A stretch of 43,013 nt of DNA from Pseudomonadota bacterium (GTDB lineage: Bacteria > Desulfobacterota > Syntrophia > Syntrophales > UBA8958), in NCBI GenBank assembly GCA_030057915.1, contig JASGUC010000002.1:1-43013 (forward strand), in the 5' to 3' direction. The first letter of the stretch is position 1. Every line of letters begins with the position of its first letter. A program made the translations under genes and the position numbers. Of this stretch, positions 24,287-41,258 are shown one piece after another. Under the pieces are notes generated by a model, which saw only the letters and a program-made list of their open reading frames with translations, searched no databases and was not told the DNA's origin.

Positions 24287-25504
24287 ATGCCCAGAATGGT
24301 CGTGCCTTTAACCGACACGAAGGTGTCGAAATCCAAGCCCAAGGAGAAGCCATACAGCCTTTTTGACGGCGGAGGTCTGTTCATCCAGATTCTACCAGCG
24401 GGCGGAAAGTTTTGGAGATTCAAATATCGTTTCGCCGGCAAAGACAATCTGCTGTCCTTTGGAAAGTATCCCGAAGTCAGTCTTGCCGAAGCGCGAAAGA
24501 AAAGAGATGAAGCCAGGCAACTGATCGCAAGCGGCGCAGACCCATCCACGGAACGAAAAGCGCAAAGAACGCTCGAAACGACGGATTCAGACACACTTGA
24601 GAATGTTGCTCGTGAGTGGTTGCAGAAGTTCATGACCTCGTTGAATCAAGGCTACTACATGAGGGTTGTCTCCTCGCTTGAGCACGATATATTTCCCTAT
24701 GTAGGCCAGAGGCCCATAAGAGAGATAATGGCTCCCGAACTGCTCTCCGTACTGCGCAGAATCGAAGATCGGGGGGCGCTCGATACAACTCGACGAGTCA
24801 AAGAGTTTTGCGGGCGAATATTCCGCTATGCCGTAGCTACTGGGCGGGCTGATCGTGATCCCACGGGCGATTTGCGAGGCGCAATACCTCCGCCCGTTTC
24901 CCATCATAGAGCAGCCATTACCGAACCCAAGCGGGCGGCTGAATTATTACGGGCTATCGATAGCTACAGCGGCAGCATCCCTGTTCTATGCGCCCTGAAG
25001 CTGGCGCCGATGCTGTTTGTCCGGCCAGGAGAGCTGAGAAAGGCAGAATGGTCCGAAATCAATCTTGATAAAGCTGAATGGAACATACCGGCAGAAAAGA
25101 TGAAAATGAAGATAGCACACCTCGTTCCGCTACCACGACAAGCTGTAGAGATACTGACAGACCTACGTCGGTACACGGGGCGTAGCCAATACTGCTTCCC
25201 GTCTGGCCGATCCTTTCAGCGGCCACTGTCGGATGTAGCGTTATTGGCGGCATTGCGACGCATGGATTTCGGTAAAGACGAGATGACTGTGCATGGTTTC
25301 CGTGCAATGGCGCGAACGATTCTCGATGAAGTGTTGGGAGTGAGGCCGGATATTATTGAACATCAGCTAGCCCACCAAGTAAAAGACCCACTGGGGCGTG
25401 CATACAACCGAACGAAGTTTATAGATGAACGCCGGAAAATGATGCAACAATGGGCCGACTACCTTGATGGACTGAAAAAGGGGGAGCTTACGACTGTTCG
25501 ATGA
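24287..25504 (+). CDS. int: P4-type tyrosine integrase of the ICE
   Basis: The 405-residue recombinase has the N-terminal domain typical of P4-like integrases (KPYSLFDGGGLFIQILPAGG; FGKYPEVSLAEARKKRDEAR), a core-binding domain (about 100-200) and a catalytic domain. Catalytic residues visible are Arg 246 (FVRPGELR), His 336 and Arg 339 (HGFRAMART), a His in EHQLAH and the nucleophile Tyr 373 (AYNRT). AAGGAG lies about 9 bases before ATG 24287. It faces away from the tRNA and its 3' end overlaps the convergent AlpA-like gene by 17 bases. Integration into the tRNA-Val gene is inferred from position. Confidence 0.95.
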   Translation: MPRMVVPLTDTKVSKSKPKEKPYSLFDGGGLFIQILPAGGKFWRFKYRFAGKDNLLSFGKYPEVSLAEARKKRDEARQLIASGADPSTERKAQRTLETTDSDTLENVAREWLQKFMTSLNQGYYMRVVSSLEHDIFPYVGQRPIREIMAPELLSVLRRIEDRGALDTTRRVKEFCGRIFRYAVATGRADRDPTGDLRGAIPPPVSHHRAAITEPKRAAELLRAIDSYSGSIPVLCALKLAPMLFVRPGELRKAEWSEINLDKAEWNIPAEKMKMKIAHLVPLPRQAVEILTDLRRYTGRSQYCFPSGRSFQRPLSDVALLAALRRMDFGKDEMTVHGFRAMARTILDEVLGVRPDIIEHQLAHQVKDPLGRAYNRTKFIDERRKMMQQWADYLDGLKKGELTTVR

Positions 25505-26355: not shown

Positions 26356-26538
26356 TTACTGGCGTCCCGCCAGGCTGTCCGGCAGGTTCCCGCCGGATGC
26401 CGTCTTGCCTATGTCGTGTAGATAGCCGGATACGCCGCAACAGGCCTGTAAGTTGTCGTTGAAGCCGGCGCACGCCGCCATATGGCGGGCTATGGTCGAT
26501 ACCGCTTGTAAATGATTGATGAGCATTGCTGTGGGCAT
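26356..26538 (-). CDS. 60-residue ORF resembling the N-terminus of an HD-domain protein
   Basis: The peptide contains INHLQAVSTIARHMAACAG and YLHDIGKTA, spaced like the first His and the HD pair of HD phosphohydrolases. It ends 14 residues later, far short of a full domain, so it is either a truncated remnant or a miniature protein. AAGGA is well placed before ATG 26538, and a shared upstream motif (26,569-26,580) precedes it. Without the rest of the domain it should lack the complete metal site. Confidence 0.5.
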   Translation of the reverse strand: MPTAMLINHLQAVSTIARHMAACAGFNDNLQACCGVSGYLHDIGKTASGGNLPDSLAGRQ

Positions 26539-26568: not shown

Positions 26569-26580
26569 TATATTACTTCC
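26569..26580 (-). promoter_or_regulatory. Shared ICE motif GGAAGTAATATA, copy 1
   Basis: This copy lies 30 bases upstream of ATG 26538. TAATAT within the motif would serve as a -10 box. The bases that follow (GGATAAAC) resemble those after copy 3 (GGATAGAC). There is no good -35 hexamer, which fits an activator-dependent promoter. Confidence 0.55.
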
Positions 26581-26623
26581 CAGACCGCACTACATGGCGC
26601 TTTATATATAATACGCCGCTGTT

Positions 26624-27922
26624 CTATTGAAAACTACCGTGGCTGATTTTTTTGTAACTTCTGGAGTGCTCGACGGCATCCACGTCAAACGTGACGCCAT
26701 GTATCTTTTTGTCGTACTTGGAGGCCCAGAACTCAAGCTTTTCGCGGCCCTGATAGTACACTCCATCCGGCCCGAAGGATCTTGTGTGGCCTTGCCACTC
26801 GTCGCCTATGCCGCATTTTGCGTAATAGTCCCCAAAAGGCACTTGAACTGTTATCTTGCCGCCGGCCCGGACAAATACCGTCACCACGGGACTGCTGGAC
26901 TTAGATCGGATGCGGATCAGCTTGATTATGCCGTGTTTTTTTCGATGGCCCGTGATCTCCATGGGAGCGACCAGGGCTGTGCGGGCCGCATCCGTATATG
27001 TGGCGCCCGATGCAGGCACGGATTCCTCGCCCCTGCCTTGGCTTCCGGGCTCAGAAAGGGCAGCCCTATAGACATATTGCCCGGCCACCGAGGCCAAGAT
27101 TATCCCGATGGTCAGTGTCACCGTAAGAATGGCAACGGTCCGTAGCCTGGGGTGTTCGCGCCACAGAGACAACGGCCGGCGTCGTTGTTCCCACAGCGAT
27201 GCCAATGCCTTAATAAGCGCAGCACCTTTCCGTGGGGCTGCCTCGCTGCTGGACACCTCTGCTTCGTCGGCGACCGGGGCCGGTGCATTGTCGGATTGCT
27301 GGTCTGGCGAGGGTTTTGCGTCTTCTTTTGCTTCGGACGCGGCGCCTTGAGCTGCCTGGGTATCGCCTTCCTTTGATCCTTGTTCTGCGGCCGCTTGAGC
27401 CTGCTTCCTTGCGCGTCGTGATCGCTGTTGATTGGATCCTTCTGTGGTTGCCAGGTCAAGTTGGCCAGTTACCTGGGCAGCTCTGCTCTCCTGATTGCTG
27501 TCCGGCGGTGTAGCTGCGCCTGCACGCGTGTCTGTGGCCGCATCTGCGACGCGTGACGACGTAGCGGCATCCCCCGCGGCGGGCGTGCTCAGCTGCGCAT
27601 CTTCTCTGGGAGGTTGAGGTCCGGAAGGAGGCAAAGGAGCGTCTGTGGAGTTATCCGGCACGGGAGGTTCCGCCGGCAATGATGGCTTCTCGGCCTCGGG
27701 GGCGGAGGCGGGCGGAGGCGCAGACTTCTCCCGTCGTCTGCGAAATGGCGATATGGGGACAGACTTGGTTTCGCTCGTGTATTCTGTCTTGGGATGAGGG
27801 CCGAATATTTTCGACTGGGGAGGTGTCACCTTTATCCTGCTGATGTCTATCTGGGGGCTGCTCTCCGGGTTGGGCACGAATGGGGTTGGCTCGGCTTGGT
27901 CAGATAAATAGATTGCATTCAA
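26624..27922 (-). CDS. Membrane-anchored protein with long Pro/Ala-rich cytoplasmic region
   Basis: Of 432 residues, about the first 225 are low-complexity, rich in Pro, Ala, Ser, Gln and charged residues. A short basic region and one membrane helix (about 265-287, TVAILTVTLTIGIILASVAG) follow. The C-terminal 130 residues form a compact domain (VTVFVRAGGKITVQVPFG, GDEWQGHTRSFGPDGVYY) resembling a small domain I recall in many bacterial hypothetical membrane proteins, with a VPxGxY and FGPD pattern. The topology is single-pass with the C-domain outside. The start is TTG 27922, preceded by GAGGA at 9 bases. The role in the ICE is unknown; a bitopic organiser of the envelope is one possibility. 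Confidence 0.75.
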   Translation of the reverse strand: MNAIYLSDQAEPTPFVPNPESSPQIDISRIKVTPPQSKIFGPHPKTEYTSETKSVPISPFRRRREKSAPPPASAPEAEKPSLPAEPPVPDNSTDAPLPPSGPQPPREDAQLSTPAAGDAATSSRVADAATDTRAGAATPPDSNQESRAAQVTGQLDLATTEGSNQQRSRRARKQAQAAAEQGSKEGDTQAAQGAASEAKEDAKPSPDQQSDNAPAPVADEAEVSSSEAAPRKGAALIKALASLWEQRRRPLSLWREHPRLRTVAILTVTLTIGIILASVAGQYVYRAALSEPGSQGRGEESVPASGATYTDAARTALVAPMEITGHRKKHGIIKLIRIRSKSSSPVVTVFVRAGGKITVQVPFGDYYAKCGIGDEWQGHTRSFGPDGVYYQGREKLEFWASKYDKKIHGVTFDVDAVEHSRSYKKISHGSFQ

Positions 27923-27937
27923 TGGCTCTAATCCTCA

Positions 27938-28165
27938 TCAATGTTCAAGTTCTATGACGATTTCGGATACGCCGTGAGCATGAATGATTTGTATGCGGCA
28001 CCTTGGATCGGACAAGGCATTGCCACGCAGGACTACATCGGGCCGTACTAGTACGTGAAGTTGGCCTGTTCGATGATTCCTCGTTGCCTGGCAGCCGCCC
28101 CCACATGACAATAATTCCTCGGGCCGAGCGGTTGTCTTTGCCTCTTGAACGCGCTTTGTGTGCAT
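27938..28165 (-). CDS. Small hypothetical protein
   Basis: This 75-residue frame begins MHTKRVQEAKTTARPEELLS and ends with a regular beta-like stretch (HVLVRPDVVLRGNAL, HGVSEIVIELEH). No ribosome site is visible, but it starts 5 bases after the stop of the preceding small ORF, so coupled translation is possible. A Cys-rich GGGC patch is present. No family recognised; it fills the gap between two better supported genes. Confidence 0.4.
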   Translation of the reverse strand: MHTKRVQEAKTTARPEELLSCGGGCQATRNHRTGQLHVLVRPDVVLRGNALSDPRCRIQIIHAHGVSEIVIELEH

Positions 28166-28169
28166 TTTC

Positions 28170-28265
28170 TCATTTTTTTCTACTGGCCTCGTCGTCCATG
28201 TTCCAACAAACATAGCCGAGCGCGAGAGCGACAACGCTGCTAAGACCGAGCAGTACGATTTCCAT
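28170..28265 (-). CDS. 31-residue single-pass membrane peptide
   Basis: The frame encodes MEIVLLGLSSVVALALGYVC followed by a charged tail (NMDDEASRKK). GAGGA lies about 11 bases before ATG 28265. It overlaps the end of the upstream deoxyribosyltransferase-like gene by 26 bases. The shape (one helix then a charged tail) resembles small membrane proteins of mobile elements. Short length makes this uncertain. Confidence 0.45.
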   Translation of the reverse strand: MEIVLLGLSSVVALALGYVCWNMDDEASRKK

Positions 28266-28725
28266 ATTCTCGATTATCCTCTTTTGATCGCAACTGATTG
28301 TCCCGCAACGTATCCCGCAGTTGACCGAGATCGTCGGGACCAAAGATGTTATCGGCAAAGCTGTACATATTCTCAAAATACCCAGGGGGAAATTGTCCCC
28401 AAATATATAGCTTTTTCCCGCAGCCTTTCGCGTACCCGCCCTCGAGATGCGAGGAATTGCCGCAGGGATAGATCATCACCACCGCGTCGCACCAATCGAG
28501 GTACTTTTTGTCTTCCTCGAACGCCCGGCGTGCTTCCGGTAAAGACAAAAAAGAAAAGACGTTCGCGTCCTCTATCTTCTCGAAGTGATCGGTCCAGCGG
28601 AAGCAGTACCGTCCGGTAGAGGTGTCGCAGAAGCAATCAACCTCGTGACCGTCCTGCCGCAAAATAGTGGCAATAATTTTTGCCAGTTCTTCGTTTCGCC
28701 ACGACGTCGCAACGTATATCTTCAC
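28240..28725 (-). CDS. Nucleoside 2-deoxyribosyltransferase-like protein
   Basis: The 161-residue protein starts VKIYVATSWRNEELAKIIAT and contains the acidic/Asn motif WCDAVVMIYPCGNSSHLEGG, matching the nucleoside deoxyribosyltransferase fold (families also annotated DUF4406). Such folds cleave or transfer the base of nucleosides or nucleotides and occur both in salvage and in phage-defence or counter-defence settings. GTG 28725 with GGAGG 11 bases upstream is preferred over the upstream ATG, which overlaps the helicase gene. It directly follows the RecD-like helicase. Enzymatic role is inferred from the fold. Confidence 0.75.
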   Translation of the reverse strand: MKIYVATSWRNEELAKIIATILRQDGHEVDCFCDTSTGRYCFRWTDHFEKIEDANVFSFLSLPEARRAFEEDKKYLDWCDAVVMIYPCGNSSHLEGGYAKGCGKKLYIWGQFPPGYFENMYSFADNIFGPDDLGQLRDTLRDNQLRSKEDNREYGNRTARS

Positions 28726-28745
28726 CGATTCCGTTTCCTCCGCTC

Positions 28746-31040
28746 CTAAACACTCAAAAACGTGACCCGCTTTGTCTGGTCTATGTTCGTACAGGCTCTC
28801 CTGAAGGCAAATACCTGTCCGATTAAAAAAACCTTCTTCTCCGCACGGGTCAGGGCCGTGTAAAACCACTTGTTGTTGAGCATCAGATAGCTGCTGTTGC
28901 TCATGGGCAGGGCGACGTACTTGTACTGGCTGCCCTGGGCCTTGTGAACAGTAAGGCAGTAAGCCAGATCAACCAAATGCTGGATATGATCGAACTCGTA
29001 CCGGACCAGGAGCTGGTCCGGATAGAGGACATAAAACTCCTCGTTTTCGTGATCTATTTTCATGACCAGGCCGACGGAACCATTGAATATGCGCTGTTTC
29101 CCATAGTCACGTATATCGCCCTCCAAAATGTGCGGGTGATACCATACCGTCTCCATGTCCTGGTTCCGCAGATGCACCACCTTGTCGCCTTCCTTGATCT
29201 TGATTCCGAACGCCGTCACAGGATTCCTGCCATGAGGATTGAATATCTCTTGCAGTGCCGGGTTGAGCGTTTCGGATCCCAGGATGCCTTTCCTCATAGG
29301 AGTCAACACCTGAAAGTCCCAGGAAGGATGAGCCAGTTGAGCAACCATCTCCGACGCTACCGCCTTGATCTTGTCCCGGATCTTTTCGTTGTTGGCATCC
29401 CGGAGTTTCCTCAGATCCTCTTCCGGCTTTTCCTTCTTGAGGGCGTAATAATTGGGTATGTCCTGGAGCATGAAACAATAATCCAAGTAATTCTTCGCAT
29501 ACCCGTCGGGCACCTCGCCCTTGCGTATCTGGTTCGCAAAATGGACCAAAACGGAATTCTCACTCTGCCTGAATATAGCGGTCAGGATTGTTTTCGGGAA
29601 CTCCCTGGGCGCCGTGATGTCGCAAAAGACATTGCCGGCGCCGATGGGCGGAAGCTGCGCCGGATCGCCCACCATGATAAAAAGCGCGTTGGGAGCGATA
29701 GCCTGAGCCAACCGATAAAACAGGGGCAGGTTCACCATGCTGGCCTCATCGAGTAAGATGACCCGGTGGGGCAGGGGGTTGTCCTTATCAAAAGCAAACT
29801 TGTTTTCTCCCTGGTACTTCAGCAGGGTGTGAATGGTAAAGGACGGATAGCCGGTGAGCTTTTTGATTCTTGTAGCGGCCATGCCCGTGAAGGCGCAGCA
29901 CACAATATCTTCCCGCCGGCAATAATTTTCCGAAAGGAAGTCCAGAATGGCCCGCGAAATGGTTGACTTGCCAGTGCCGGCGTAGCCCAGGAGGGCGTAA
30001 ACGCTGGTCTTGCCCGCCGCAATACGGCGAATGATATTCTTCTGATCGGAAGAAAACTCGAAACCAAGGTACTGTTGGGATCTGGCAATGAACTGCTCCG
30101 CCTTATCCGGCAGGGCAATGGCTGAATAATTGTCTATGCAGCGATTCTGGAAGAACTTCAACAGCCAACGCTCCATGTGCCGGTAGGAGGCTATAGACAC
30201 GCCTGCTTCATCAACGATTACATTGCCCATTGCAGACAGCGAGAGCAGGGCGTCATCCATCGCTTGGTTGGTAGCCTTTTCCGTGTCCGTATCGAGGATT
30301 TCGTGCAGCGCGACACACAGATCCTCGACGGACGTACAGGTGTGGCCGCTGTCGTCGGCCGCCTTGTACAGTACATAGATAATGGCGGCCTGGATCCGGA
30401 ACGGAGAATCAAAGGCAACGTCCAGCTTGCGGGCCACATTGTCTGCGGTCTTGAAGCCAATTCCCGTAATTTCAGTCAGGCAATAAGGGTTCGCCTTGAC
30501 CTTTTGCACCGCGTCCGCGCCGAACTGGGTGAACACGCGCACCAGCATGTTGGAGGTTACGCCGGCGGGAAGCAGATAGTCGGACAGGTCCCGGAGACAC
30601 TTCTGCTTTTCCCAGGAGGCCTTAATGCGGGCAAGCTTTTTTTCCTTGATTCCCTTGTATTCCAGCAGGACCTCGGGCGTCTTGTCCAGTATCTCGATCA
30701 GGCGGCTTTCCCCGTAATGCTCGACAAGATCCCTGGCCATATTCTCGCCCAGGCCCTTGACCATTTTCGCGAGAAACTGGTGAAGCTGGCTGCCAACCAT
30801 TTGCCCGTAGGCGAATGAAAACTGCCGGCCATACTTCGCGTCGGCCTTCCAGTCCCCCTGGAGCATGTACTCCATGCCCACGAGATCGGTCGTAGTCATG
30901 GCATCGGGAAGAATGCCCACCGCTGTAACGTCCTGTGCGGTCCTGGCCGTGGAACCGCCCTTGCCGCGCAATACGACGAAGCCATTGGTTTGATTCGCGT
31001 AGGTGACGCGATCTATTTTAATCCGCAGGCTTTGCTGCAT
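28746..31040 (-). CDS. RecD2-like ATP-dependent DNA helicase
   Basis: The 764-residue SF1 helicase has an N-terminal OB-like and helix-hairpin-helix region (GLGENMARDLVEHYG, ITGIGFKTADNVA), Walker A GYAGTGKST (about 353), Walker B VILLDEASM (about 430), motif III GDPAQLPPIG, and the C-terminal UvrD-like motif TVHKAQGSQ. It is longer than E. coli RecD and fits the RecD2 type, which acts without RecBC and moves 5' to 3'. ATG 31040 with GAGGGAA 8 bases upstream is preferred over ATG 31076. It overlaps the ribbon-helix-helix gene by 23 bases. A role in ICE DNA processing or repair is likely but not shown. Confidence 0.92.
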   Translation of the reverse strand: MQQSLRIKIDRVTYANQTNGFVVLRGKGGSTARTAQDVTAVGILPDAMTTTDLVGMEYMLQGDWKADAKYGRQFSFAYGQMVGSQLHQFLAKMVKGLGENMARDLVEHYGESRLIEILDKTPEVLLEYKGIKEKKLARIKASWEKQKCLRDLSDYLLPAGVTSNMLVRVFTQFGADAVQKVKANPYCLTEITGIGFKTADNVARKLDVAFDSPFRIQAAIIYVLYKAADDSGHTCTSVEDLCVALHEILDTDTEKATNQAMDDALLSLSAMGNVIVDEAGVSIASYRHMERWLLKFFQNRCIDNYSAIALPDKAEQFIARSQQYLGFEFSSDQKNIIRRIAAGKTSVYALLGYAGTGKSTISRAILDFLSENYCRREDIVCCAFTGMAATRIKKLTGYPSFTIHTLLKYQGENKFAFDKDNPLPHRVILLDEASMVNLPLFYRLAQAIAPNALFIMVGDPAQLPPIGAGNVFCDITAPREFPKTILTAIFRQSENSVLVHFANQIRKGEVPDGYAKNYLDYCFMLQDIPNYYALKKEKPEEDLRKLRDANNEKIRDKIKAVASEMVAQLAHPSWDFQVLTPMRKGILGSETLNPALQEIFNPHGRNPVTAFGIKIKEGDKVVHLRNQDMETVWYHPHILEGDIRDYGKQRIFNGSVGLVMKIDHENEEFYVLYPDQLLVRYEFDHIQHLVDLAYCLTVHKAQGSQYKYVALPMSNSSYLMLNNKWFYTALTRAEKKVFLIGQVFAFRRACTNIDQTKRVTFLSV

Positions 31041-31242
31041 CAAAGCTTCCCTCGATTCCCCCGGACACTCTGCCATCGGCAGATGGCGCTTTCAAAAGTC
31101 TTTTGGATAGATAACTCTCGATCATCGTTTCCAGCATGTGGCTCATCCAGAATTTGTCTTCCCTGGCAGCTTGGCGGAACTTATTCCACACGTCTTCCCG
31201 TATCCTGATGCTCCTGATTATTCTCACAACGAACTTATCCAT
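31018..31242 (-). CDS. Small ribbon-helix-helix-like DNA-binding protein
   Basis: The 74-residue protein opens with a beta strand and two helices: VRIIRSIRIREDVWNKFRQA and HMLETMIESYLSKRLL, the layout of Arc/MetJ-type regulators (strand then VW-KF helix). The C-terminal tail is Gly/Ala-rich and disordered. It sits between traK and the helicase gene and overlaps the latter by 23 bases. A GGAGG is 15 or more bases before ATG 31242, so initiation may be weak. It may regulate the transfer genes or act as a relaxosome accessory; both are inferences. Confidence 0.7.
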   Translation of the reverse strand: MDKFVVRIIRSIRIREDVWNKFRQAAREDKFWMSHMLETMIESYLSKRLLKAPSADGRVSGGIEGSFDAAKPAD

Positions 31243-31270
31243 TGTAATTGCGGTCCCCCCTCCCCGCTTT

Positions 31271-32074
31271 TTACGGCGTGGTGCGCCGGCCTGTGTCTCT
31301 CAACATCTCCAGCGGGCTATAGCGTTTGAGCATGGAGTTCATGTCTTTCTGAGTTGCTGACCTGCTGATCAGGTAGATCGTCGCGTTTCCCTTTGGAGGC
31401 ACCTCGTGGCGATCAACCGATACCGCCAGCACTCCCCGGTCGTAAAACTCGTTTTCCGCCACCCGGATTGTCTCTCGGGAGACATTCGTCAACATTTGCA
31501 CCTCACCCTCAAGCGAGGCCCCGACATATCGTGCCATCACCTTTCTATGCGTGCCCTGCCAGGAACGCACTTCGCGGCTGTCCTTGTTCAAGGCGAACCC
31601 CATGGGCGGAGATTCAAGGTACATCGCCTTGATGAGTTCCTTGAGGCCGCTTATATGGTCATGACTCTGTTCCCACAGCGTAGCATCATGCAGGGCCTCC
31701 GCTGGCGTCCTGGCTATGACCATCTCGGCAGGAACACCCTTGGGAACCAGCATTAACAGGTAGGTCCCTCCGGGGGCGACTATGAACAATTCCTGCGGCG
31801 CCGTGGCGCTTTTATCCAAGACGTTGATGTAGATGCTGTCCCCTTCAACCTTAACATCGAGCATCCGGCTAACCGTGTACGCCTTCAGGTTGCTTATCCC
31901 CGGCAGCTTGACCACGTTCAGATCCTTCTGCGATATGTCTATGAACTGGGTTGCACCCTCTTTGAGCATCACGGTTTGCAGAGCAGAGGCTTCCTGCACA
32001 ATGACACAGGCGAGAAGCGCGAACAGGCATGCAATCAGCCTGATTTTTAGATTTCTATTCGGTTCCCTTCCCAC
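31271..32074 (-). CDS. traK: TraK, F-type T4SS secretin-like outer membrane component
   Basis: The 267-residue precursor has a signal peptide (LIACLFALLACVIVQEASA) and the TraK pattern of an N-terminal beta domain that starts QTVMLKEGATQFIDISQKD, with LFIVAPGGTYLLMLVPKG in the middle. TraK (VirB9/TrbG counterpart) joins TraB and TraV in the outer-membrane core complex. Its start overlaps the traE end by 20 bases. It is the last transfer gene of the L-E-K block before the regulator and helicase genes. Confidence 0.88.
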   Translation of the reverse strand: MGREPNRNLKIRLIACLFALLACVIVQEASALQTVMLKEGATQFIDISQKDLNVVKLPGISNLKAYTVSRMLDVKVEGDSIYINVLDKSATAPQELFIVAPGGTYLLMLVPKGVPAEMVIARTPAEALHDATLWEQSHDHISGLKELIKAMYLESPPMGFALNKDSREVRSWQGTHRKVMARYVGASLEGEVQMLTNVSRETIRVAENEFYDRGVLAVSVDRHEVPPKGNATIYLISRSATQKDMNSMLKRYSPLEMLRDTGRRTTP

Positions 32075-32702
32075 TCTTAGCCCTCTCTTTTTCCTTTTCC
32101 TTTTCTTTTTCTATTTCCACTTTTTCTTCTCGGGCCGCCTGTTTGTCCCGGCCAGGATACTCAGTGTAGAATTCCTGCAACCAGAGCTTGTAATTCTCGG
32201 GATGGAACTTTATGCGCAGAATCATCTTTTCTCTGGAGATCCGGGTCGTGCCAATATTGCGGATAACCTCGCCCTCGATGGTAACGGAGTTGAATTCGGG
32301 ATCGACATTGACCGCCGCCGGATAGAAGGACTGCGTAATGTTGTTCTTCTTGATATAGAGCGCCTGTGCAGCCAAATCCGCCTTGGCGTCACTGGTCCCC
32401 GAAGAACCGCCTATGTGATGTATCAGCAGGGAGACGTTGTACTCGGCGTTTTCAGGAGACAGATTGCCGCCAAGCATGGCAAAGAACATTCCCATTTGCT
32501 CCAGATATTCAGGCGCAGCACGCTTCGACTCAATCCAGAATTGCTTTGTTACCTGCGGGGGAACGATGACAACTCGATCGTTTGACTTGAACACCGTGGC
32601 GTTGAGAATCAAGCCGATGGCAAGGAACAGGCAAAGCGAACGAAGAAAGAAGTTTTCCGCCAGGGCGGTTTTCCAGTCTCGAATCCATTTATCGTATAGC
32701 AC
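32055..32702 (-). CDS. traE: TraE, VirB8-like T4SS inner membrane component
   Basis: The 215-residue protein has a short cytoplasmic start, one membrane helix (about 20-40, FFLRSLCLFLAIGLILNATV) and a periplasmic domain with VRNIG-type strand patterns (VTIEGEVIRNIGTTRI). A highly charged tail (EKVEIEKEKEKEKERA) ends the protein. This fits TraE/VirB8. The start is GTG 32702 with GAGG 4 bases upstream. It lies 10 bases after traL. It helps assemble the inner membrane part of the F-type channel. Confidence 0.9.
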   Translation of the reverse strand: MLYDKWIRDWKTALAENFFLRSLCLFLAIGLILNATVFKSNDRVVIVPPQVTKQFWIESKRAAPEYLEQMGMFFAMLGGNLSPENAEYNVSLLIHHIGGSSGTSDAKADLAAQALYIKKNNITQSFYPAAVNVDPEFNSVTIEGEVIRNIGTTRISREKMILRIKFHPENYKLWLQEFYTEYPGRDKQAAREEKVEIEKEKEKEKERAKSGKGTE

Positions 32703-32712
32703 AATGCCTCGC

Positions 32713-32982
32713 TTATTCTATGTACGACCTGAAATGACTGGGCGGACAACTTTTTAGATTGAGGCCGGCCACCCAGTAGAGAACGTGAAGGAAAAACCCG
32801 TCCGATCTTCCGGCTTTCACGCGGGACAGCAAGTACGCCAGGACAACCCCCAAGGTGATCATTACCGTGGGAACCCCGGTGATCGTACCGATGGAAAAGC
32901 AGGTGCCAAATACAATGAACTCGTCAAGCTCCCAAAAGAAAATTTGCGGGGGGTCGTCAATATACCTGGATATGCGCGTCAT
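32713..32982 (-). CDS. traL: TraL, small T4SS inner membrane protein
   Basis: The 89-residue protein opens with the TraL signature ISRYIDDPPQIFFWELDE, followed by two membrane segments (about 23-55) and a short tail. It corresponds to VirB3. GGAGG lies 9 bases before ATG 32982, and the shared ICE motif copy 2 lies 29 bases upstream. It starts the L-E-K block, which is separated from the rest of the transfer genes by 200 bases that contain an insertion-sequence-end-like remnant. Confidence 0.92.
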   Translation of the reverse strand: MTRISRYIDDPPQIFFWELDEFIVFGTCFSIGTITGVPTVMITLGVVLAYLLSRVKAGRSDGFFLHVLYWVAGLNLKSCPPSHFRSYIE

Positions 32983-33011
32983 GCCGCCGTTCCTCCTTGT
33001 ATTCTTTGTTT

Positions 33012-33023
33012 TATATTACTTCC
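33012..33023 (-). promoter_or_regulatory. Shared ICE motif GGAAGTAATATA, copy 2
   Basis: This copy is 29 bases upstream of the traL ATG, the same distance as copy 1 from its gene. It starts a new gene group after the gap that follows the OmpA-family gene. Confidence 0.55.
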
Positions 33024-33063
33024 GCAGAGCGCCGGATATTAGGAATATTTATCCAATGGGGCC

Positions 33064-33090
33064 TTGACCCGCCTGAAAGGCGAGGATTCT
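33064..33090 (-). mobile_element. IS200/IS605-end-like palindrome remnant
   Basis: The sequence reads TTGACC then CGCCTGAAAGGCGAGGATTC, a shortened form of the TTGACATCCTCCCC-hairpin-GAGGATTCC seen at 41,158-41,193. Such palindromes are typical of IS200/IS605 ends. No transposase or TnpB gene is near. The 32,983-33,185 gap has no supported gene. Confidence 0.45.
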
Positions 33091-33185
33091 CGGGAATGCT
33101 CAACGTGCCAGAAGCTATGCGCAACTGGTATAGGTCGATTTTATTGGGCGCGGTATGCCAGGAAGGTTCTCTTGATGGGGACAGT

Positions 33186-33890
33186 TTAGGAATTCCCGGC
33201 TTTAGCCGCAGGGGGGGACAGGACAGGCTTCGGAGCAGGAGCAACGTGCGTGTTGCCAACCGGCGACACATTGGCATCCGCCTCTGCTCTTTGAGGCTTA
33301 TTTTTGATCTCCAGCTCGACTCGGCGATTCATGCTGTTGTCTTTTTCGTCTTTGTAGCAACACTTGCCCTTTCCGGTAACAATCGCATCTTCGTATCCCA
33401 GTTGGCGATTGACGGTTTCGGCACGCCGTAGCGCGAGCTTGTCGTTGTAGGACCGGGAACCGATCTTGTCGGTATAGCCGGTTATAACGGCCGTGCTTTC
33501 CGGGGCCGGGGCCTTGTGCTTTATCCGCTCTATCTTCTCCTTTTCTTGTTTGTCCAGGGCCGCCGAATCAAAATCGAAGTACACCGTTTCCCGGACAGGC
33601 GGAGTGGCAACGGAACGAGGCATTACTTTTTGAGCACTGATTCTCATGGGTGTAGCGGGTCTTTGTACGCGAACCTGAGCATACGGTCGTTTTTTCGTGG
33701 GCGTGCTGCAATCAGGCCCGGCGCATAATATAAAGGATGGTGATTTAAGGTACTTGCCAACATCGGACGGATACGCATATTCGGCTTGGCTGGTTTTGAT
33801 GACCTGCGCACCGGCGATTACATCCCCAGGAATCGTCAAGCTGAATGCGATTGCCAATGCGATTATGGTTGTTTTTCGGTCTATATTCAT
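33186..33890 (-). CDS. OmpA-family protein encoded within the transfer cluster
   Basis: The 234-residue precursor has a signal peptide (ALAIAFSLTIPGDVIAGA), a variable linker rich in Pro and Arg, and an OmpA/MotB peptidoglycan-binding domain (about 105-195; YFDFDSAALDK, ITGYTDKIGSRSYNDKLALRRA, NRRVELEI). The tail is Pro/Ala-rich. It has no beta-barrel, so it is a periplasmic or outer-membrane-attached anchor. It starts 20 bases after traC in the same direction. An OmpA-like protein inside an F-type transfer operon may anchor the channel to the cell wall; this is inferred. Confidence 0.88.
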   Translation of the reverse strand: MNIDRKTTIIALAIAFSLTIPGDVIAGAQVIKTSQAEYAYPSDVGKYLKSPSFILCAGPDCSTPTKKRPYAQVRVQRPATPMRISAQKVMPRSVATPPVRETVYFDFDSAALDKQEKEKIERIKHKAPAPESTAVITGYTDKIGSRSYNDKLALRRAETVNRQLGYEDAIVTGKGKCCYKDEKDNSMNRRVELEIKNKPQRAEADANVSPVGNTHVAPAPKPVLSPPAAKAGNS

Positions 33891-33910
33891 AAAATCTCTC
33901 GCTTCTTCTC

Positions 33911-36325
33911 TTAATGCGCGACGGGAGACTGCTGTTCCCGCTGCAATTGTTCCAGAATGGCTTCCTTGATGGTCATGCCGCTGTCCGTCATTTGCTTTAG
34001 CACCAGGAATTCCTCCGGCTTTGTCGTGTAAAGCAACTGGGTGAACCGATCCACGACCAGGCGACCGATGGCGATCCCGTCGGGAGCATAAAGGAATATT
34101 TCAGAGTAATTGTCTGCGTCGGTATGCACCGATTTGAGCAACTCGTACATCCCTTCGGATAGAGACACCTTCTGGGACTGCTTGAGCGCCTCTATGCTTT
34201 CCGCACGTTGCCGCAACAGGAAAAAATAATCGGAATTCTCGACAATGGCGACGCCGGCAGGATTCTTGTGAAAGTCATTGATGGACTGCGTTATTGACAG
34301 ACACGCGCCACCATACTTGCGAAAGCGGCGATACCCGGTTTCCATGAACTGACTGGTGTTGCCGCCGCTCAGCAATTCCCACGCCTCGTCGATGATAACG
34401 AGCTTGTTTTCGCCCCGCTGCATCATGTCCTGCTGGATCTTGTACACCAGGGTGAGCAGGACGACTTCCTGGAGATCCTTCTTCGACTTCAATTCCTCCA
34501 GCTCCAGGCAGACGAATCCGCCCTTGGGATTGAAGGTGCTTGGGCCTTCGAAGAAAGTTGCATAGGAACCGCCCGACGTGTATGGGTAAAGCTTCATGCC
34601 GAGATCCACTTGCCTTGTATCCGGCTTCGCCGTGAGATACGAGGCAATATCCGTTATCGTGGTAGAGGTGCCGTGTTTGGCGAAACAATCCTTGATCGCC
34701 TCCTCCATGTACGACTGAGAAAGGTCGTCCAGGGGACTGTTTGAGGCCATTTGCGCGAGGATTGCCTTGATCATGGTCATTTCCTCGTCAATGTCCACCA
34801 CGGAAGAGAATGGGTTGAGGCTCATGTTGGTCGCCGTATCGAACACAAGGAAATCGCCGTCCAATATCGCGCACAGCTTTTCATAGCTGCGTCCCACGTC
34901 GATAATCCAGACCTTGGCGCCCAGGCCGAGGTAGGATACGATCAGTTCATTGACAAAAAATGACTTGCCGGCGCCCGTACCGGCACATACCACCCCGGAA
35001 TAGCCGCCTCGCTTGTTGGAGAACAGGTCAATAAATTGAAGCTGGCCCCGGCGGCTGATCAGGGGCAGGACCGGACGCCCGCCACCCTTCCAGTCGGACT
35101 GTATAGGGGCAATTTCGGCCACATTCGCCGTAGTGAATGTACGCCGCCGACGCAGGTCCCTCTGTGCCTCTCTATGATAACACATCGGGAGCGCCTGCAA
35201 GATCAGGGGCAGCATAATGTAGTTGTCCTCCTGCAATATAAAGCCCATGCCGCGATAGAGACTCTGACAAATGCTCCCCATGGACGTGGCCTCAGCCGCA
35301 TCCTTGGCGTAAATAAACATGTTCAGGTAAGCTTTGAATGGGGTCTCCCCATGCTCCAGGGCTACTGTGAATTCGTCGAAATGCTCCTTCCGCATCCCGA
35401 GCTTGGGAAACCACTTGGCAAACTGCCCGTATGCCTGATAACTGGCTACCGTGGCTTTCTTCTGAATCTCGCGCCTTGTGGATAGCTGATCCAGATATTC
35501 GCAGTTCAAGACCAGCATGAAGGGAGCGCCTATCTGCTTCACGTTCTGGTACACATCACCTGTATAGGAGATGATCCCGGACGCATCCCACTCACGCGGA
35601 TATTGCTTCACGGTAAAGCTTTTTACATGATAGCCGTCTAGCACCAGGCAGTCCTTGCGGACCTCCGTTTCCGTATCGGCGTATATCACCTGGTCCTTTA
35701 TGGCCGCCTTGGGATCGTAATAAAGGTTGTCCGATAAACGATGGCCCGGATTGAGCAGCTCGCTCAGGATGTTGATCAGTTCCTCCGGTCCTATGGCGGT
35801 GGGATACAAGCCCGTCGTGTTCAACGCCTGGTAAACGGTTTCCCTCATGGTCGGCAGGATGTTCTCTTTGGCGTTCTTTATGGCCTGGGGAGTGTGAGCA
35901 CATGGCGTGGCGACGGATACAATCATCCGGAAATCCCGCACGCGAATATCGCAGCCCTTGAAAAGGGACTTGTCGGCGCCGGAGTTAAGAAACTCCGCAC
36001 GCTGCCGGGCAAAATCGGAGAACATGGAATTCCCGTGAGTGTTCTCTCGATACATCACATAAGCGTCAAGCTGCTCGTTGATTTTCCGGGATGAGTAAAG
36101 CATTATCTGGAGAGAGGTGCCGGCGGGAAATTGCGTTTCGAACAAGCCTCGCAAAGTCGATGCCGCACTACTGCTCGGATAGGGCAGGGGATGGCACTCG
36201 AAAATCAGACCGACGGCATTGTCAAGGATGTACGCCCTGGATTGCTCGTCATAGGCCAGATAGGGCAAGTACTCCGATAACGGTTGCCGGTCGAGAAGCA
36301 TCTTGGCGGCCCTAAGAGAGTCCAT
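33911..36325 (-). CDS. traC: TraC, T4SS ATPase (VirB4 family)
   Basis: The 804-residue ATPase has the TraC N-terminal domain (LPYLAYDEQSRAYILDN), Walker A GTGAGKSFF (about 452) and Walker B LVIIDEAWELL (about 643). The C-terminal part matches VirB4-type motifs (FRKYGGACLSITQSINDF). It powers pilus assembly and substrate transfer at the inner membrane. ATG 36325 lacks its own ribosome site; the only GGAGG is about 60 bases upstream, beyond a hairpin repeat. An in-frame TAA within that repeat rules out an upstream start. A terminator and a promoter-like motif lie further upstream, so traC and the OmpA gene form their own unit. Confidence 0.93.
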   Translation of the reverse strand: MDSLRAAKMLLDRQPLSEYLPYLAYDEQSRAYILDNAVGLIFECHPLPYPSSSAASTLRGLFETQFPAGTSLQIMLYSSRKINEQLDAYVMYRENTHGNSMFSDFARQRAEFLNSGADKSLFKGCDIRVRDFRMIVSVATPCAHTPQAIKNAKENILPTMRETVYQALNTTGLYPTAIGPEELINILSELLNPGHRLSDNLYYDPKAAIKDQVIYADTETEVRKDCLVLDGYHVKSFTVKQYPREWDASGIISYTGDVYQNVKQIGAPFMLVLNCEYLDQLSTRREIQKKATVASYQAYGQFAKWFPKLGMRKEHFDEFTVALEHGETPFKAYLNMFIYAKDAAEATSMGSICQSLYRGMGFILQEDNYIMLPLILQALPMCYHREAQRDLRRRRTFTTANVAEIAPIQSDWKGGGRPVLPLISRRGQLQFIDLFSNKRGGYSGVVCAGTGAGKSFFVNELIVSYLGLGAKVWIIDVGRSYEKLCAILDGDFLVFDTATNMSLNPFSSVVDIDEEMTMIKAILAQMASNSPLDDLSQSYMEEAIKDCFAKHGTSTTITDIASYLTAKPDTRQVDLGMKLYPYTSGGSYATFFEGPSTFNPKGGFVCLELEELKSKKDLQEVVLLTLVYKIQQDMMQRGENKLVIIDEAWELLSGGNTSQFMETGYRRFRKYGGACLSITQSINDFHKNPAGVAIVENSDYFFLLRQRAESIEALKQSQKVSLSEGMYELLKSVHTDADNYSEIFLYAPDGIAIGRLVVDRFTQLLYTTKPEEFLVLKQMTDSGMTIKEAILEQLQREQQSPVAH

Positions 36326-36328
36326 CTC

Positions 36329-36398
36329 AAATTCGCGGCGCGGAATCCCCTGCCTTTAGGCATCGGGAGGAGCGCCGCTTCCTCCTTTCTTTTTGTAG
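36329..36398 (-). repeat. Hairpin repeat family, copy A, with ribosome-site leader
   Basis: On the minus strand a leader CTACAAAAAGAAAGGAGG is followed by the 48-base core, which starts GGCGCTCCTCCCGATGCC and ends GCGCCGCGAATTT. The core folds as a hairpin around TGCC-TAAA-GGCA, with outer GGCGC/GCGCC pairing. It ends 3 bases before the traC ATG, and copies A and B share GAATTTGAGATG at this edge, so the traC start codon is part of the repeat. Confidence 0.85.
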
Positions 36399-36406
36399 TC
36401 TATCCC

Positions 36407-36418
36407 TATATTACTTCC
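36407..36418 (-). promoter_or_regulatory. Shared ICE motif GGAAGTAATATA, copy 3
   Basis: This copy lies between the terminator of the PKD gene and the leader of repeat A, exactly where a promoter for traC would be needed. CTGACT 18 bases upstream of TAATAT is a possible -35. Confidence 0.6.
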
Positions 36419-36525: not shown

Positions 36526-39500
36526 TTAGTATCCTTCTACCGTGACCTCCTTGGATACCGTCGTTGAATCGCCGTTGTCATCATAAGCAGTCAGCGTGGC
36601 GGAGTAGGTGCCACCCGTATCATATTTCACGCTGGCTTTCCGGGTACTCGCCGTCAGGCCGCCTCCGAAGTCCCATTCGTATCCCTTGATCTTGCCGTCC
36701 GGATCTTTGCATACTGCATCATACTGCATAACGCCGCGCTTCTGATTATACTCATGGGCAATCGTGCAATTAGGCGGCTGATTCTGAACTACCGTTATTG
36801 TCGTTGACCCCGACCCTTCATACCCATATTGCGATGTTGCAGTGAGACTAATGTCGTAGGTTCCCGGCTCATTGAAAGTAAAGACCCCCATGGCCTTGTT
36901 GTCACCCATGGGCGCACCATTTACATACCATTGATAGGTCTGTATCTTGTCCTTCTTCTGATTGCCGCCAGTGACTTTGGGTCTTAATCTTACCGTCAAT
37001 GGAGCTTTCATGTACTTGTTGCTCGTACTTACCTTGATGGAACCAACGACAATTTCGGGCTGATCTGCTACGGTTACGGTATCCGTAATGGTCTGTGTAT
37101 GGCCTCTTGTGTCGCTGACAGTCAGGCTTACATCATATGTTCCGCCGGCCGGGTACGTGTGCGTTATCCTTTTGTCTTCGGTCGTGTAAACCGTCCCATC
37201 GCCCATATCCCAAGCGTAAGTAAAAACTTCTCCTTTGGCGGCCTTTAAATCTGCGTTTATTTTGTAGGTCACACCGTATGGCGCCGTCCCCGTAGGTTTG
37301 TGGTTTTTCTTGATAGTAAATACCGGCATAACATAACGAGAAACCTTGACCTTGGTTTTGGCTGTCGATAGCGCCGATTCGTACCCCTGTGGATGCACCT
37401 GAGCCGTAATCATTATGTCTCCCTCGTCTGACGGGCGGGGAGTGTATGTTATGCTCGTGCCCGTAGGAGTGGTAAGATCAGGCAATTGCCATGTCACTAC
37501 CGGCGTGAGCCCTTCTTGCAGCTTGGTTACTTTTGCTTCCAGGATCATTGGATAGCCCACCTCGGCCCTGCACTTGTTGGAACAAGTAATAGTCATCCTT
37601 GGCGGGGGAACGGCCCGTACAGATACAGTTATTGCCGTTTCACCTATCAAATCTGGATGCTCTTCGCGGTACGCTGAGGCTTTAATGACATATCGGCCCG
37701 GTGTATCCATGTGAAAATCAATATAATTGCCCGACATGGTTTCTCCGTTAACATCCCATGTGAGGACCATATTTTCGCCGGATGCATCAGCGTCTGTTAT
37801 TGCGGTGTAACGCGTGGTTGCCTTCTCGACTACCGTTTTGGGACCGTCAATGGCAATTTTTGGTTTGGCTGGCGCAGTAACTTGAACAGCCTTCTGGGCC
37901 AGCGTTCTATCCGGTCCATCAAGGCCCCCGTACCCGGTGCTGATTACACCTATAAGTAGAGGTGTGGAGGTAGAGTAGGTATGGTACGAGGATACAAGCT
38001 TTGTACCGGCAAGATTGCCGGTCTTTATGTTGCTGCCGCCATCTGGGATAGCGTATATTTGGCCTCCCGCAGCGTTTGTGCCTCCTCCCGGTGCGCTACC
38101 GTTACTCGTAAAGGGGATTAGCTCACCGTGTGGAACCGCTATTCCGATGCTGTAACCGGGCTTGACTGCTGCGGGCTTGTCTAACACATAAGTGTGCGCT
38201 TTGCCGAGTTCCTCTGCGGTTGCGGTAATCAAGCCACTACTCCATGTTATCCTATTCGTATCGTCAACAAGCACGAATTTGTAGGAGCCAATGTAATCAG
38301 GTGAGCTATGATACGCATACATGATTTCTTTTAGCCATCCCGTATTTTTTGCAACTCCGTTTACTTTGTCCTTGCTATGCAGAAGATACACTTGATGCCT
38401 GGCCACTGTGACATTTGGCTCGACTTTGCTCATAATAATCCAATTCTGCAGGGCGCCACCGGTTATACCGAGGGTCTTCAAAGTGTCCGTACTATATTGC
38501 GTAAAGCCCATGTAGAAAGTCTCAGCCGCAAAAGTTGTCGGGGTCAAGATGTCAACTGCTATCTCTTCTGGTCCGGAAACTTCCCCGGCAGTCAGGTTGA
38601 CGCGATCAGTTCCCTGTCCAGATACGATGGAGCTGAACTTCATGTCATGCCAATCGTAGCCCACTATATTGCCCTCGGCAACAATATTACAACTATAACT
38701 TGTGCCTGTATATACTTTTGCCGGACAGATCATGTCGATCACGGCAACTACCGGATCCCGTGGGGTTGTCGTAATCGGAGCAGAAGCAAAATCCCAGTGC
38801 AGTCCCGCATCGGGAAAACGAGTAGGGATTATACGCGCCTTTACAACAAAAGGCCCGCTCGTGTTGGCTCGAATGGCTACTGTACTACCATTAGATGCTT
38901 CCACTACTGCGCCTCCTTCAATGCTCCATGTCACTGTCATGGGTTCAGTAGTGCCCGGAGTGCTGTACGACAGGCTACACTGTGCCTCCCTCCCTTGGTA
39001 TATGAATTCGTCGCAAGTAATCGTTCCCTGGACATCGCCGGACAGACCGTTGTTGTACACAACGAACTGTTCGCGAAAAGGATGCTTGATGCCATAAATC
39101 CGGTTATCGTCCAGCACATCACCGGCCCATAAATAATCTGGCAGATGACCCGCCACACCAAATGTTGCATCCTTGGTGCCGTCCATATTCAGCCGCGTTA
39201 TGCCATCCTCTTGCATGAATAAGGTTATCTTGTTATTCTTTATGACGATATTGACTGGTGTGGCTTCCAATGCCAGGTATCCATCTGTTCCAAATCCTGT
39301 ATCGAGCGTCATGGAAGGAATATTGATCCTGCAGAGGGATAGCTTGGAGCCGTTACTATAATTGTTAGTCACTACATATAACGCCTCAGTGCCGTACCCG
39401 GTGACATAAACTGGGTCGCTTATGGGCAACAGTTGGGGGGATACTGTACTCGTAGCAGAGATTGTGCCTGTTCCTACTCCATCCACCTGCACCTGTACAA

Positions 39501-40197
39501 GCTGCCGCTTGCTCAGATCGGTTTCATTTCTCTTAAATAAATACACATGTTGGGTGCTCGGCGTTGTGGCAACCGTGACGGATTTAGCGGAATAGGAGTT
39601 GTCCAGGGGGACAAAGGCGTACCCTTGTGTCGGCGCTACCACTTTGATTACCAGGCCATATAGACTGTCTTTTACTCTGGTGGCGATCATTGCCATTAAG
39701 GTATGTTCTCCATCCATGCCGGGCATGATTCCCTGCGGGTAAACAGTCCACTCCCAGTTCGCCATTCCCTCAATGGCATACGAATACGTGGCGGAGCCCT
39801 CATACCTTTTAAAGACGACCGTACCGTTACCACCTTGTATTACCACTAACCGCTTTTCTGGGTGAGTGTACACTATAGGAGCGCCGCCTCTGCTCGTGTT
39901 AGAGATAAATGATGCGGGCTCTGGATATGTTGGTATTTCGATGGTCCTTAGAGAACCGTCAAAGTGTGTGTGGATAGTAATGTATTGATTTCCATCATTT
40001 ACACAGGACCTAATCGTCGGGGTAGGATAAGTTTTGTAGTTTACATTGGTGCTCCTTTGAGTCCAGTCCCTGACGAAGTCATAGTTTACGTAGTCTATGC
40101 TTTCCAGGGCCGCAAACCCCGGAGACACCCACATAAGGAGTGTCGCGGCCACTGCAAGAGCCAGCAAGATTTGTGTGATTCCTCTTTTTTGTTTCAT
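36526..40197 (-). CDS. Large exported protein with three C-terminal PKD domains
   Basis: The 1223-residue protein has a signal peptide (ILLALAVAATLLMWVSPGFA, cleavage near residue 29), then a long beta-rich region (30-400, possibly propeller-like), several Ig-like segments (about 400-950), and three PKD domains (about 960-1043, 1047-1135, 1138-1222; motifs YAWDMGDGT, GTYDVSLTV, YEWDFGGG). It ends without a sorting signal or membrane anchor. AAGGAG lies 8 bases before ATG 40197. It sits between the pilin and traC in the same direction and ends in its own terminator. PKD and Ig-like arrays usually mediate protein or carbohydrate binding on the cell surface, so a mating-contact adhesin is plausible but inferred. 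Confidence 0.85.
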   Translation of the reverse strand: MKQKRGITQILLALAVAATLLMWVSPGFAALESIDYVNYDFVRDWTQRSTNVNYKTYPTPTIRSCVNDGNQYITIHTHFDGSLRTIEIPTYPEPASFISNTSRGGAPIVYTHPEKRLVVIQGGNGTVVFKRYEGSATYSYAIEGMANWEWTVYPQGIMPGMDGEHTLMAMIATRVKDSLYGLVIKVVAPTQGYAFVPLDNSYSAKSVTVATTPSTQHVYLFKRNETDLSKRQLVQVQVDGVGTGTISATSTVSPQLLPISDPVYVTGYGTEALYVVTNNYSNGSKLSLCRINIPSMTLDTGFGTDGYLALEATPVNIVIKNNKITLFMQEDGITRLNMDGTKDATFGVAGHLPDYLWAGDVLDDNRIYGIKHPFREQFVVYNNGLSGDVQGTITCDEFIYQGREAQCSLSYSTPGTTEPMTVTWSIEGGAVVEASNGSTVAIRANTSGPFVVKARIIPTRFPDAGLHWDFASAPITTTPRDPVVAVIDMICPAKVYTGTSYSCNIVAEGNIVGYDWHDMKFSSIVSGQGTDRVNLTAGEVSGPEEIAVDILTPTTFAAETFYMGFTQYSTDTLKTLGITGGALQNWIIMSKVEPNVTVARHQVYLLHSKDKVNGVAKNTGWLKEIMYAYHSSPDYIGSYKFVLVDDTNRITWSSGLITATAEELGKAHTYVLDKPAAVKPGYSIGIAVPHGELIPFTSNGSAPGGGTNAAGGQIYAIPDGGSNIKTGNLAGTKLVSSYHTYSTSTPLLIGVISTGYGGLDGPDRTLAQKAVQVTAPAKPKIAIDGPKTVVEKATTRYTAITDADASGENMVLTWDVNGETMSGNYIDFHMDTPGRYVIKASAYREEHPDLIGETAITVSVRAVPPPRMTITCSNKCRAEVGYPMILEAKVTKLQEGLTPVVTWQLPDLTTPTGTSITYTPRPSDEGDIMITAQVHPQGYESALSTAKTKVKVSRYVMPVFTIKKNHKPTGTAPYGVTYKINADLKAAKGEVFTYAWDMGDGTVYTTEDKRITHTYPAGGTYDVSLTVSDTRGHTQTITDTVTVADQPEIVVGSIKVSTSNKYMKAPLTVRLRPKVTGGNQKKDKIQTYQWYVNGAPMGDNKAMGVFTFNEPGTYDISLTATSQYGYEGSGSTTITVVQNQPPNCTIAHEYNQKRGVMQYDAVCKDPDGKIKGYEWDFGGGLTASTRKASVKYDTGGTYSATLTAYDDNGDSTTVSKEVTVEGY

Positions 40198-40350: not shown

Positions 40351-40420
40351 AAATTCGCGGCGCGGGGAACCCTGCCTTTAGGCATGGGGAGGAGCGCCGT
40401 TTCCCCCTTTCTGTTTATAG
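40351..40420 (-). repeat. Hairpin repeat family, copy B, with leader
   Basis: The core is 48 bases, as in copy A, with loop-stem TGCC-TAAA-GGCA. Its flanking stem changes on both sides relative to A (CTCCCC with GGGTTCCCC). The leader is altered to CTATAAACAGAAAGGGGG. It keeps GAATTTGAGATG at the edge, but here that ATG begins no gene. The PKD gene starts 153 bases downstream. Confidence 0.82.
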
Positions 40421-40876: not shown

Positions 40877-40946
40877 AAATTCGCGGCGCGGGGCTCCCTG
40901 CCTTTAGGCATCGGGAGGAGCGCCACTTCCTCCTTTCTTTTTGTAG
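40877..40946 (-). repeat. Hairpin repeat family, copy C, with leader
   Basis: The leader (CTACAAAAAGAAAGGAGG) is identical to that of copy A and is followed by the 48-base core, with CTCCC/GGGAG pairing around the TGCC-TAAA-GGCA hairpin. GCGAATTTAGGATG is partly duplicated at its edge. It ends 27 bases before the traA start. The core can be read from GTG as VALLPMPKGREPRAANL, but this start is not kept in copies A and B. Confidence 0.85.
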
Positions 40947-41193: not shown

Positions 41194-41258
41194 GTGTTTA
41201 TCGCCGCGTTCGCATCGGCGTTATCGGTATAATACTTACCTATCAGGCGTAATTCGGA

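Follow-up and report, generated by a model that had tools for sequence, protein, structure and literature searches.

SetCD works together with host sigma70, and the known master switches of Gram-negative ICEs are, to our knowledge, DNA-binding activators that still use host sigma70. SetCD itself is the classical master activator of the SXT/R391 ICEs (PMC4344509), and IncA/C also has a master activator (PMC4207636). In other conjugation operons elongation is the controlled step, as with RfaH/ops in F-like plasmids and conAn in pLS20 (PMC8955417). Plasmid-encoded sigma factors are described as rare, and SigN (ZpdN) of pBS32 from Bacillus subtilis is a self-activating representative that uses promoters with -35 and -10 elements (PMC6751061). 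The late promoters of phage T4 are reduced to a simple -10-type box without a -35 element, and their reader gp55 is related only to domain 2 of sigma factors (PMC2988020).

The window analysed here, which is the whole stretch of 43,013 nucleotides, represents an entire contig and ends inside traB. Its gene content comprises an integrase beside tRNA-Val, an HD-like ORF, a RecD-like helicase, TraK, TraE, TraL and an OmpA-like protein, together with TraC, a PKD protein, a pilin-like protein, TraV, DsbC and the end of TraB. On the basis of the set of TraC, TraE, TraK, TraL, TraV, TraB and DsbC in combination with the integrase, the element is an F-type (MPF_F) ICE. The copies of the motif GGAAGTAATATA and the features around them are located as follows:

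24287-25504 (+), tyrosine integrase of the ICE, adjoining tRNA-Val; 71.5% identical to the G022 integrase beside the sigma gene
26356-26538 (-), small HD-domain-like ORF of 60 aa that the motif opens; Pfam HD with E 0.0014, below the family cut-off
26569-26580 (-), motif copy ahead of the HD-like ORF; exact 12-mer, supported by the site alignment; predicted +1 at A26563
32713-32982 (-), traL, heading the traL-traE-traK group; Pfam TraL 3.7e-25, with TraE and TraK matches
33012-33023 (-), motif copy ahead of traL; exact 12-mer, with AGAAGTAATATA at the equivalent spot of the sister ICE; predicted +1 at A33006
33911-36325 (-), traC, T4SS ATPase, heading the traC-ompA-like group; Pfam TraC_F_IV 2.4e-75, homologue in the sister ICE 75% identical
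36354-36376 (-), palindromic repeat, an insertion in the traC leader; one of 4 near-identical copies, against 0 expected
36407-36418 (-), motif copy ahead of the traC leader; exact 12-mer, 47 nt past the T-run of a terminator; predicted +1 at A36401
36471-36500 (-), intrinsic terminator upstream of the traC motif, ending the PKD-gene transcript; 13-bp stem with 8 GC pairs
41228-41239 (-), probable degenerate fourth copy GTAAGTATTATA in the traV/pilin gap; 2 mismatches

The three exact copies of GGAAGTAATATA are all located on the coding strand of the downstream ICE genes, at distances from the ATG of 30 nt for the HD-like ORF, 29 nt for traL and 81 nt for traC (ATG at 36325). Thus, the identical 12-mers that the original prediction had placed before these genes, with their spacing to the first two, were confirmed, and the strong terminator before the traC copy proved to be real. 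The host genome, with 2.85 Mb on 64 contigs, has no exact match of the 12-mer beyond these three, and none of the reversed control pattern. The flanks of the three copies are dissimilar to each other in the site alignment, and the copies are therefore not parts of a longer duplicated repeat. Sigma70-type promoter calling returned no promoter at any of the three sites.

Several side observations were made on the neighbouring sequences. The HD metal motif is positioned near the end of the 60 aa of the HD-like gene, which may encode a truncated HD protein. The palindromic repeat has the form GGCGCTCCTCCC[G/C]ATGCCTAAAG...GGGG...GCGCC and resembles an IS200/IS605-type end or a MITE; in addition to the copy that separates the SD-like sequence of traC from its ATG, it is found at 40376-40398, 40902-40924 and 41013-41035 (-), two copies being ahead of the pilin gene. 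The PKD-repeat protein within the tra region (36526-40197, -) is an exported-looking protein of 1223 aa, and two diverged homologues of 900 and 1616 aa are encoded by the sister ICE.

Outside the host genome, about 20 further genomes of the order also contain exact 12-mers, with the reversed control occurring at similar rates. When the pattern GGAAGTAATAY followed by an SD sequence was searched in 155 genomes of the class, more than one occurrence was obtained in G002 (4) and G000 (2) only. At 11 TraL loci elsewhere in the order no motif was detected within 2 mismatches just upstream of traL; the motif is therefore not a general tra feature of this order.

A TraC search identified one close relative, G002, the uncultured delta proteobacterium AlinenLipids_bin-9048. 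Its ICE is distributed over two contigs: the first 41.7 kb or so of C17 span the tra genes up to the integrase, and C29 has TraG, TraH, TraN, TraU, TraW and the coupling protein at about 78-117.6 kb; TraN, TraU and TraW were named by position and by matches in G500. The pattern RGAAGTAATA occurs 22 times in this 4.0-Mb genome, and 12 of the occurrences fall within the 81 kb of the ICE, compared with 0.21 expected from the rest of the genome (about 58-fold enrichment, P about 1e-17). The 12-mer is confined to the window ICE in its own genome, and the proposal that the motif defines a regulon of the element was supported.

In the sister ICE the core GGAAGTAATAY is found ahead of about ten gene groups. 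A copy stands upstream of traL, of a 515-aa gene and of a 225-aa gene. Others open the operon o14842-ParB-NusA-like-...-TraB, an operon of NusG-like and HD genes as well as its divergent neighbour, the traF-traH-traG-leading group and the TraF26/TraW/TraU/TraN group, and copies are also associated with the traV-pilin gap and with the end of the element that has the integrase. Two near-copies, GGAAGTAGTACA, are located one before each PKD gene. At traL, AGAAGTAATATA occupies the place equivalent to that in the window, 28 nt from the ATG-proximal end of the leader, and copies in the traV-pilin gap are present in two related ICEs (G002 C17:22044 and G291:18490). Hence, the expected recurrence of the motif before transfer genes of related ICEs was seen for traL, the traV-pilin gap and other transfer groups, but not for traC of the sister ICE, which has no motif upstream and where the gene order differs from the window. 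At one divergent gene pair, two inverted motif copies lie 14 nt apart, each facing one gene.

Variants of the motif were found in further elements. G500 has GGAGGTAATAC ahead of a sigma gene (24 nt) and of the gene preceding traL, and AGGTAATAY ahead of the TraF and TraH genes. The variant RAGTAWTAC precedes the sigma, NusA-like, DsbC and pilin genes of G291, AGTAATAY precedes the sigma gene, the NusA-like gene and a divergent gene in G022, and GGAAGTAATAG occurs twice in G372 with an SD sequence behind each. Most variants scored 0.002-0.05 against shuffles and three scored 0.08-0.12; those of G291 and G022 are degenerate and individually weak (most P 0.01-0.12). The core common to the elements is RGTAATAY, the GG prefix being kept in some only and lost in G291 and G022, and the motif is conserved over elements in different families of the phylum. 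The gene order sigma-ParB-NusA-like-o17464-SLT is common to G291 and G022, and in G291 it continues into TraB, DsbC, TraV, pilin and TraC. Separately, another repeat of about 45 nt, RRGTAATAYA...(T)AGTTTTTTCAGTAGG...CGAAC, was observed, whose layout is unrelated to SD-linked promoters; it is located in G500 C5 at about 114350, 115194, 117695, 128483 and 129706 (-) and in G372 C22 at 127 and 7480 (-).

For the analysis of the layout 13 sites were aligned; a copy inside the NusA-like ORF (C17:17287) and one antisense inside traW (C29:115175) were left out, and the invariance of positions 1-10 results in part from selecting sites by the core. Position 11 is Y in all 13 sites, position 12 is A in 10 of them, and position 18 is A in 11 and G in the other 2. 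If TAATAY is taken as -12 to -7, position 18 falls exactly on the predicted +1; the A-richness of this column had a P of 0.005 when A-rich leaders were shuffled, and of 0.08 if any column was allowed. No conserved -35 hexamer was present at any spacing over the 13 sites, including 15-19 nt. Most copies have a start codon 18-36 nt downstream, and the SD sequence can be as close as 8-10 nt. Moreover, the T-runs of terminators end 7 nt (C29:102414) and 10 nt (traL) upstream of the motif in G002 and 47 nt upstream at traC of the window, so that transcription would start at or after the motif, barring polymerase readthrough.

The motif heads gene groups of the ICE, on the coding strand and at two sites with terminators just upstream, and the description as a shared promoter-like motif was upheld. 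The layout strongly suggests that it is the -10 element of a promoter with the start 7 nt further on. As to the -10-like TAATAT without a strong -35 element, the lack of the latter stands, but TAATAT is not a plain sigma70 -10 box, its last base (position -7) being C in 7/13 sites. GGAA is typical of the -35 boxes of ECF sigma factors; such a reading was rejected because a -10 element about 16 nt further on would fall in or after the SD sequence at several sites.

The sister ICE encodes, less than 1 kb upstream of one motif copy and at C17:13777-14280, a protein with sigma-70 region 2 (Pfam Sigma70_r2 7.6e-8, with further matches to NCBIfam sigma families). The likely start gives a protein of 167 aa, after which nothing follows that could be region 4. 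Homologues are encoded in G022 (38%), G291 (36%), G500 (quite diverged), G518 and, weakly, G372, so that short sigma proteins of 127-181 aa, with domain 2 present and domain 4 absent, were found in the G002 ICE and five other elements of the phylum; as the relatives were found from a few homologues, the range of the family is underestimated. These proteins share a block after region 2 that is absent from RpoD, with the consensus V..YPDGR.E..SYKKF..IKR in three of them. Modelled from three homologues (mean pLDDT 69), the protein matched domain 2 of many sigma factors over about 90-100 residues (residues 10-112) with Z 9-10.8. Although such values are modest for a helical domain, all top matches of the structure search were sigma factors or scaffolds derived from one, in agreement with the sequence.

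In the alignment with RpoD of the host, the helix with the conserved W (the aromatic melting helix of region 2) is kept, with changes at several neighbouring positions. Residues of the helix by which sigma70 reads -12 differ in the ICE sigma, and its motif specificity is therefore not deducible from sequence. The sole PHROG match was the general sigma family phrog_351. Searches for relatives returned only general sigma factors in plasmids and nothing in viral contigs. The sigma, NusA-like and NusG-like genes were not found in the assembly of the window, where only ordinary full-length factors are present; since the sigma and NusA-like genes of G002 lie a few kb beyond the point equivalent to the contig end, this absence is uninformative. 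Motif variants are positioned ahead of the sigma gene itself in G500, G291 and G022, while no clear motif was seen upstream of the sigma gene in G002, G518 and G372.

Two observations concern the surroundings of the sigma gene in G002. Directly after it, a fragment of a peptide-release-factor-like (GGQ) protein is encoded (L022:4280-4573, +), and past this fragment tandem repeats of about 38 nt fill the stretch from the motif copy at C17:14644 to the gene that follows. An S24 peptidase (LexA/CI-type) repressor gene (L022:2680-3402, -) is oriented divergently to the sigma gene and is a candidate for a damage-responsive switch of the sigma factor.

Two further transcription-related proteins are encoded by the ICE of G002:

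L022:6803-7435, corresponding to G002 C17:16802-17434 (+), short NusA-like protein with S1-KH-KH architecture
L024:9499-9966, corresponding to G002 C29:93617-94084 (-), NusG/Spt5-like protein of 155 aa; TIGR00405 3e-6, NusG_myco 1e-4

The NusA-like protein has about 210 aa and no N-terminal RNAP-binding domain. Its family is present in at most 8/395 genomes of the phylum, with ICE genes adjoining where resolved, and within this sample all five genomes with the sigma gene also have the short NusA-like gene (P 7e-10). The NusG-like gene is the first in an operon with a 467-aa HD-domain protein, and the motif opens this operon. By sequence, NusG-like genes were detected in G002 and weakly in G500, thus not in all sigma genomes, and none in G000. 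A single-sequence model of the NusG-like protein reached a pLDDT of 37 and was not used.

Taken as the working model and considered fairly probable, GGAAGTAATAY would be the whole recognition part of the promoter, read by the ICE-encoded domain-2-only sigma factor. We infer this reader because sigma gene and motif co-occur, because three elements have the motif upstream of the sigma gene itself and because the missing -35 element fits the lack of domain 4. In such a promoter, GGAAG at -17 to -13 and TAATAY at -12 to -7 would form an extended -10 element without a -35 box, and transcription would start with an A 7 nt past the -10 element. Sigma domain 2 would dock on RNA polymerase and read and melt the -10 region, domain 4 as the -35 reader being missing. 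Once made, the ICE sigma would direct the host polymerase to all ICE gene groups together, from the genes for pilus and mating to the operon of ParB and NusA-like genes and the end with the integrase. The motif of the sigma gene in the three relatives may provide positive feedback and switch behaviour, and the NusA-like and NusG-like proteins may carry the polymerase through the long operons and thereby the programme into elongation.

The original prediction had favoured an ICE-encoded activator as the reader of the motif, which was not sustained: the motif occupies the -10 position, as little as 18 nt from start codons. Being too close to the RBS and start codons, it is not an upstream activator site, and the small ICE sigma is the better candidate; the factor that reads the motif is probably an ICE-encoded sigma and not a classical activator. 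In a variant of the activator proposal, GGAAGTAATAY is bound by an ICE-encoded activator or repressor, for example of the XRE or S24 type of G002, over an ordinary sigma70 promoter with TAATAT as -10. HTH and S24-type regulators are indeed encoded in the G002 ICE, TAATAT resembles a -10 box, and control of a regulon by ICE activators is well known from SetCD (PMC4344509). With SetCD and IncA/C the present system would share an element-encoded master factor, a common promoter motif and many scattered transfer operons. SetCD, however, is an activator, whereas here a sigma is the candidate factor and the motif takes the -10 position. The motif is not palindromic, has no -35 element at any spacing and gave no sigma70 call at the three window sites; given also the C at position -7 and the short distance to the start codon, control by such a regulator is unlikely. 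No match to an FlhDC-like activator was obtained among the ICE proteins scanned, which were part of the set.

Alternatively, the motif could act during elongation in the manner of ops, being transcribed from promoters further upstream and serving as a pause where the NusG paralogue of the ICE, like RfaH, joins the polymerase and blocks termination. The NusG-like protein of G002, whose operon starts with the motif, the NusA-like protein, the terminators inside the tra region and the GG/Y spacing of the motif, a spacing characteristic of pause sites, all fit this proposal. The motif also shares GG..GTA...Y with ops, the published RfaH site of F-like tra operons (PMC8955417). Like RfaH/ops and conAn, the ICE family combines long conjugation operons and internal terminators with special elongation factors, here NusA-like and NusG-like proteins; a difference is that ops is transcribed and RfaH comes from the host, while the ICE supplies its own factors and its motif appears to mark where transcription starts. 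A pause reading was favoured at first, since a NusG-like gene is present and the sequence matches ops; the short distance to the terminators, the inverted copies at the divergent pair and the missing GG in G291 and G022 then weighed against it. Two copies follow intrinsic terminators after 7-10 nt, leaving no space for an upstream promoter, and the inverted copies 14 nt apart serve divergent genes. In G291 and G022 the core RGTAATAY is kept and GG is lost, which is opposite to the requirement of a pause (a G at pause position -10) and favours a -10 promoter element. Considering moreover the tight distance to the start codons and the presence of the NusG-like gene in part of the sigma genomes only, an ops-like role is improbable.

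Very improbable are extended -10 promoters of host sigma70 that have no dedicated factor and whose identical copies stem from recent shuffling of gene modules. The TAATAT sequence with its A-rich downstream region and the short SD spacing would suit host sigma70, but the exact 12-mer is found nowhere else in the host genome, GGAAG is kept in the place where a TG extension would be expected and is missing, the unrelated flanks speak against recent duplication, and the motif is conserved across different families of the phylum. Finally, 12-mers can recur by chance in AT-rich intergenic DNA, but the genome-wide restriction to the ICE and the 58-fold enrichment in the sister ICE leave virtually no room for this explanation.

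The preferred reading, an ICE sigma acting on -10-only promoters, resembles the late system of T4 with gp55 and gp33, in which a -10-type box alone, AT-rich DNA downstream and a small domain-2-only reader are likewise combined. It differs in the box, which is GGAAGTAATAY and not the TATA box of T4, and in being borne by conjugative elements instead of a lytic phage; furthermore, the ICE proteins keep a clearly recognisable region 2 and share their own C-terminal block, in contrast to gp55. Members of the gp55 family have conserved segments 1, 3 and 4, including a clamp-binding tail, and the T4 system further employs gp33 as coactivator and the sliding clamp for activation; the likeness to gp55 proposed here would concern the way of working and is not extended to membership of that family. 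SigN similarly is a sigma of a mobile element that drives an element-specific regulon and its own promoter, and its LexA-type control has a counterpart in the S24-type repressor gene near the sigma gene of G002. Unlike the promoters of the ICE sigma, the SigN consensus has both -35 and -10 elements; its regulon is tied to cell death and not known for conjugation, and its host is Gram-positive. Full-text literature searches in an incomplete collection found no report of an ICE-encoded sigma in the role proposed here.

If the proposed sigma-promoter pair holds, a minimal ICE-borne sigma with private promoters would be a different solution from activator switches. The host polymerase would hardly recognise the transfer genes before a single small protein is made, and these genes would function in every host with an RNA polymerase core that is compatible with the sigma. 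Such a natural and compact orthogonal promoter/sigma pair would also be a cellular counterpart to T4 gp55 for studying transcription start by a lone sigma domain 2. More tentatively, a family of F-type ICEs may possess a complete private kit consisting of the domain-2-only sigma, private -10-only promoters and its own NusA-like and NusG-like factors. In that case the host polymerase, refitted for both initiation and elongation in the manner of large phages, would transcribe the whole conjugation programme. Related elements carry the motif beside a small sigma of their own, and their transfer genes may be switched on by a private transcription key.
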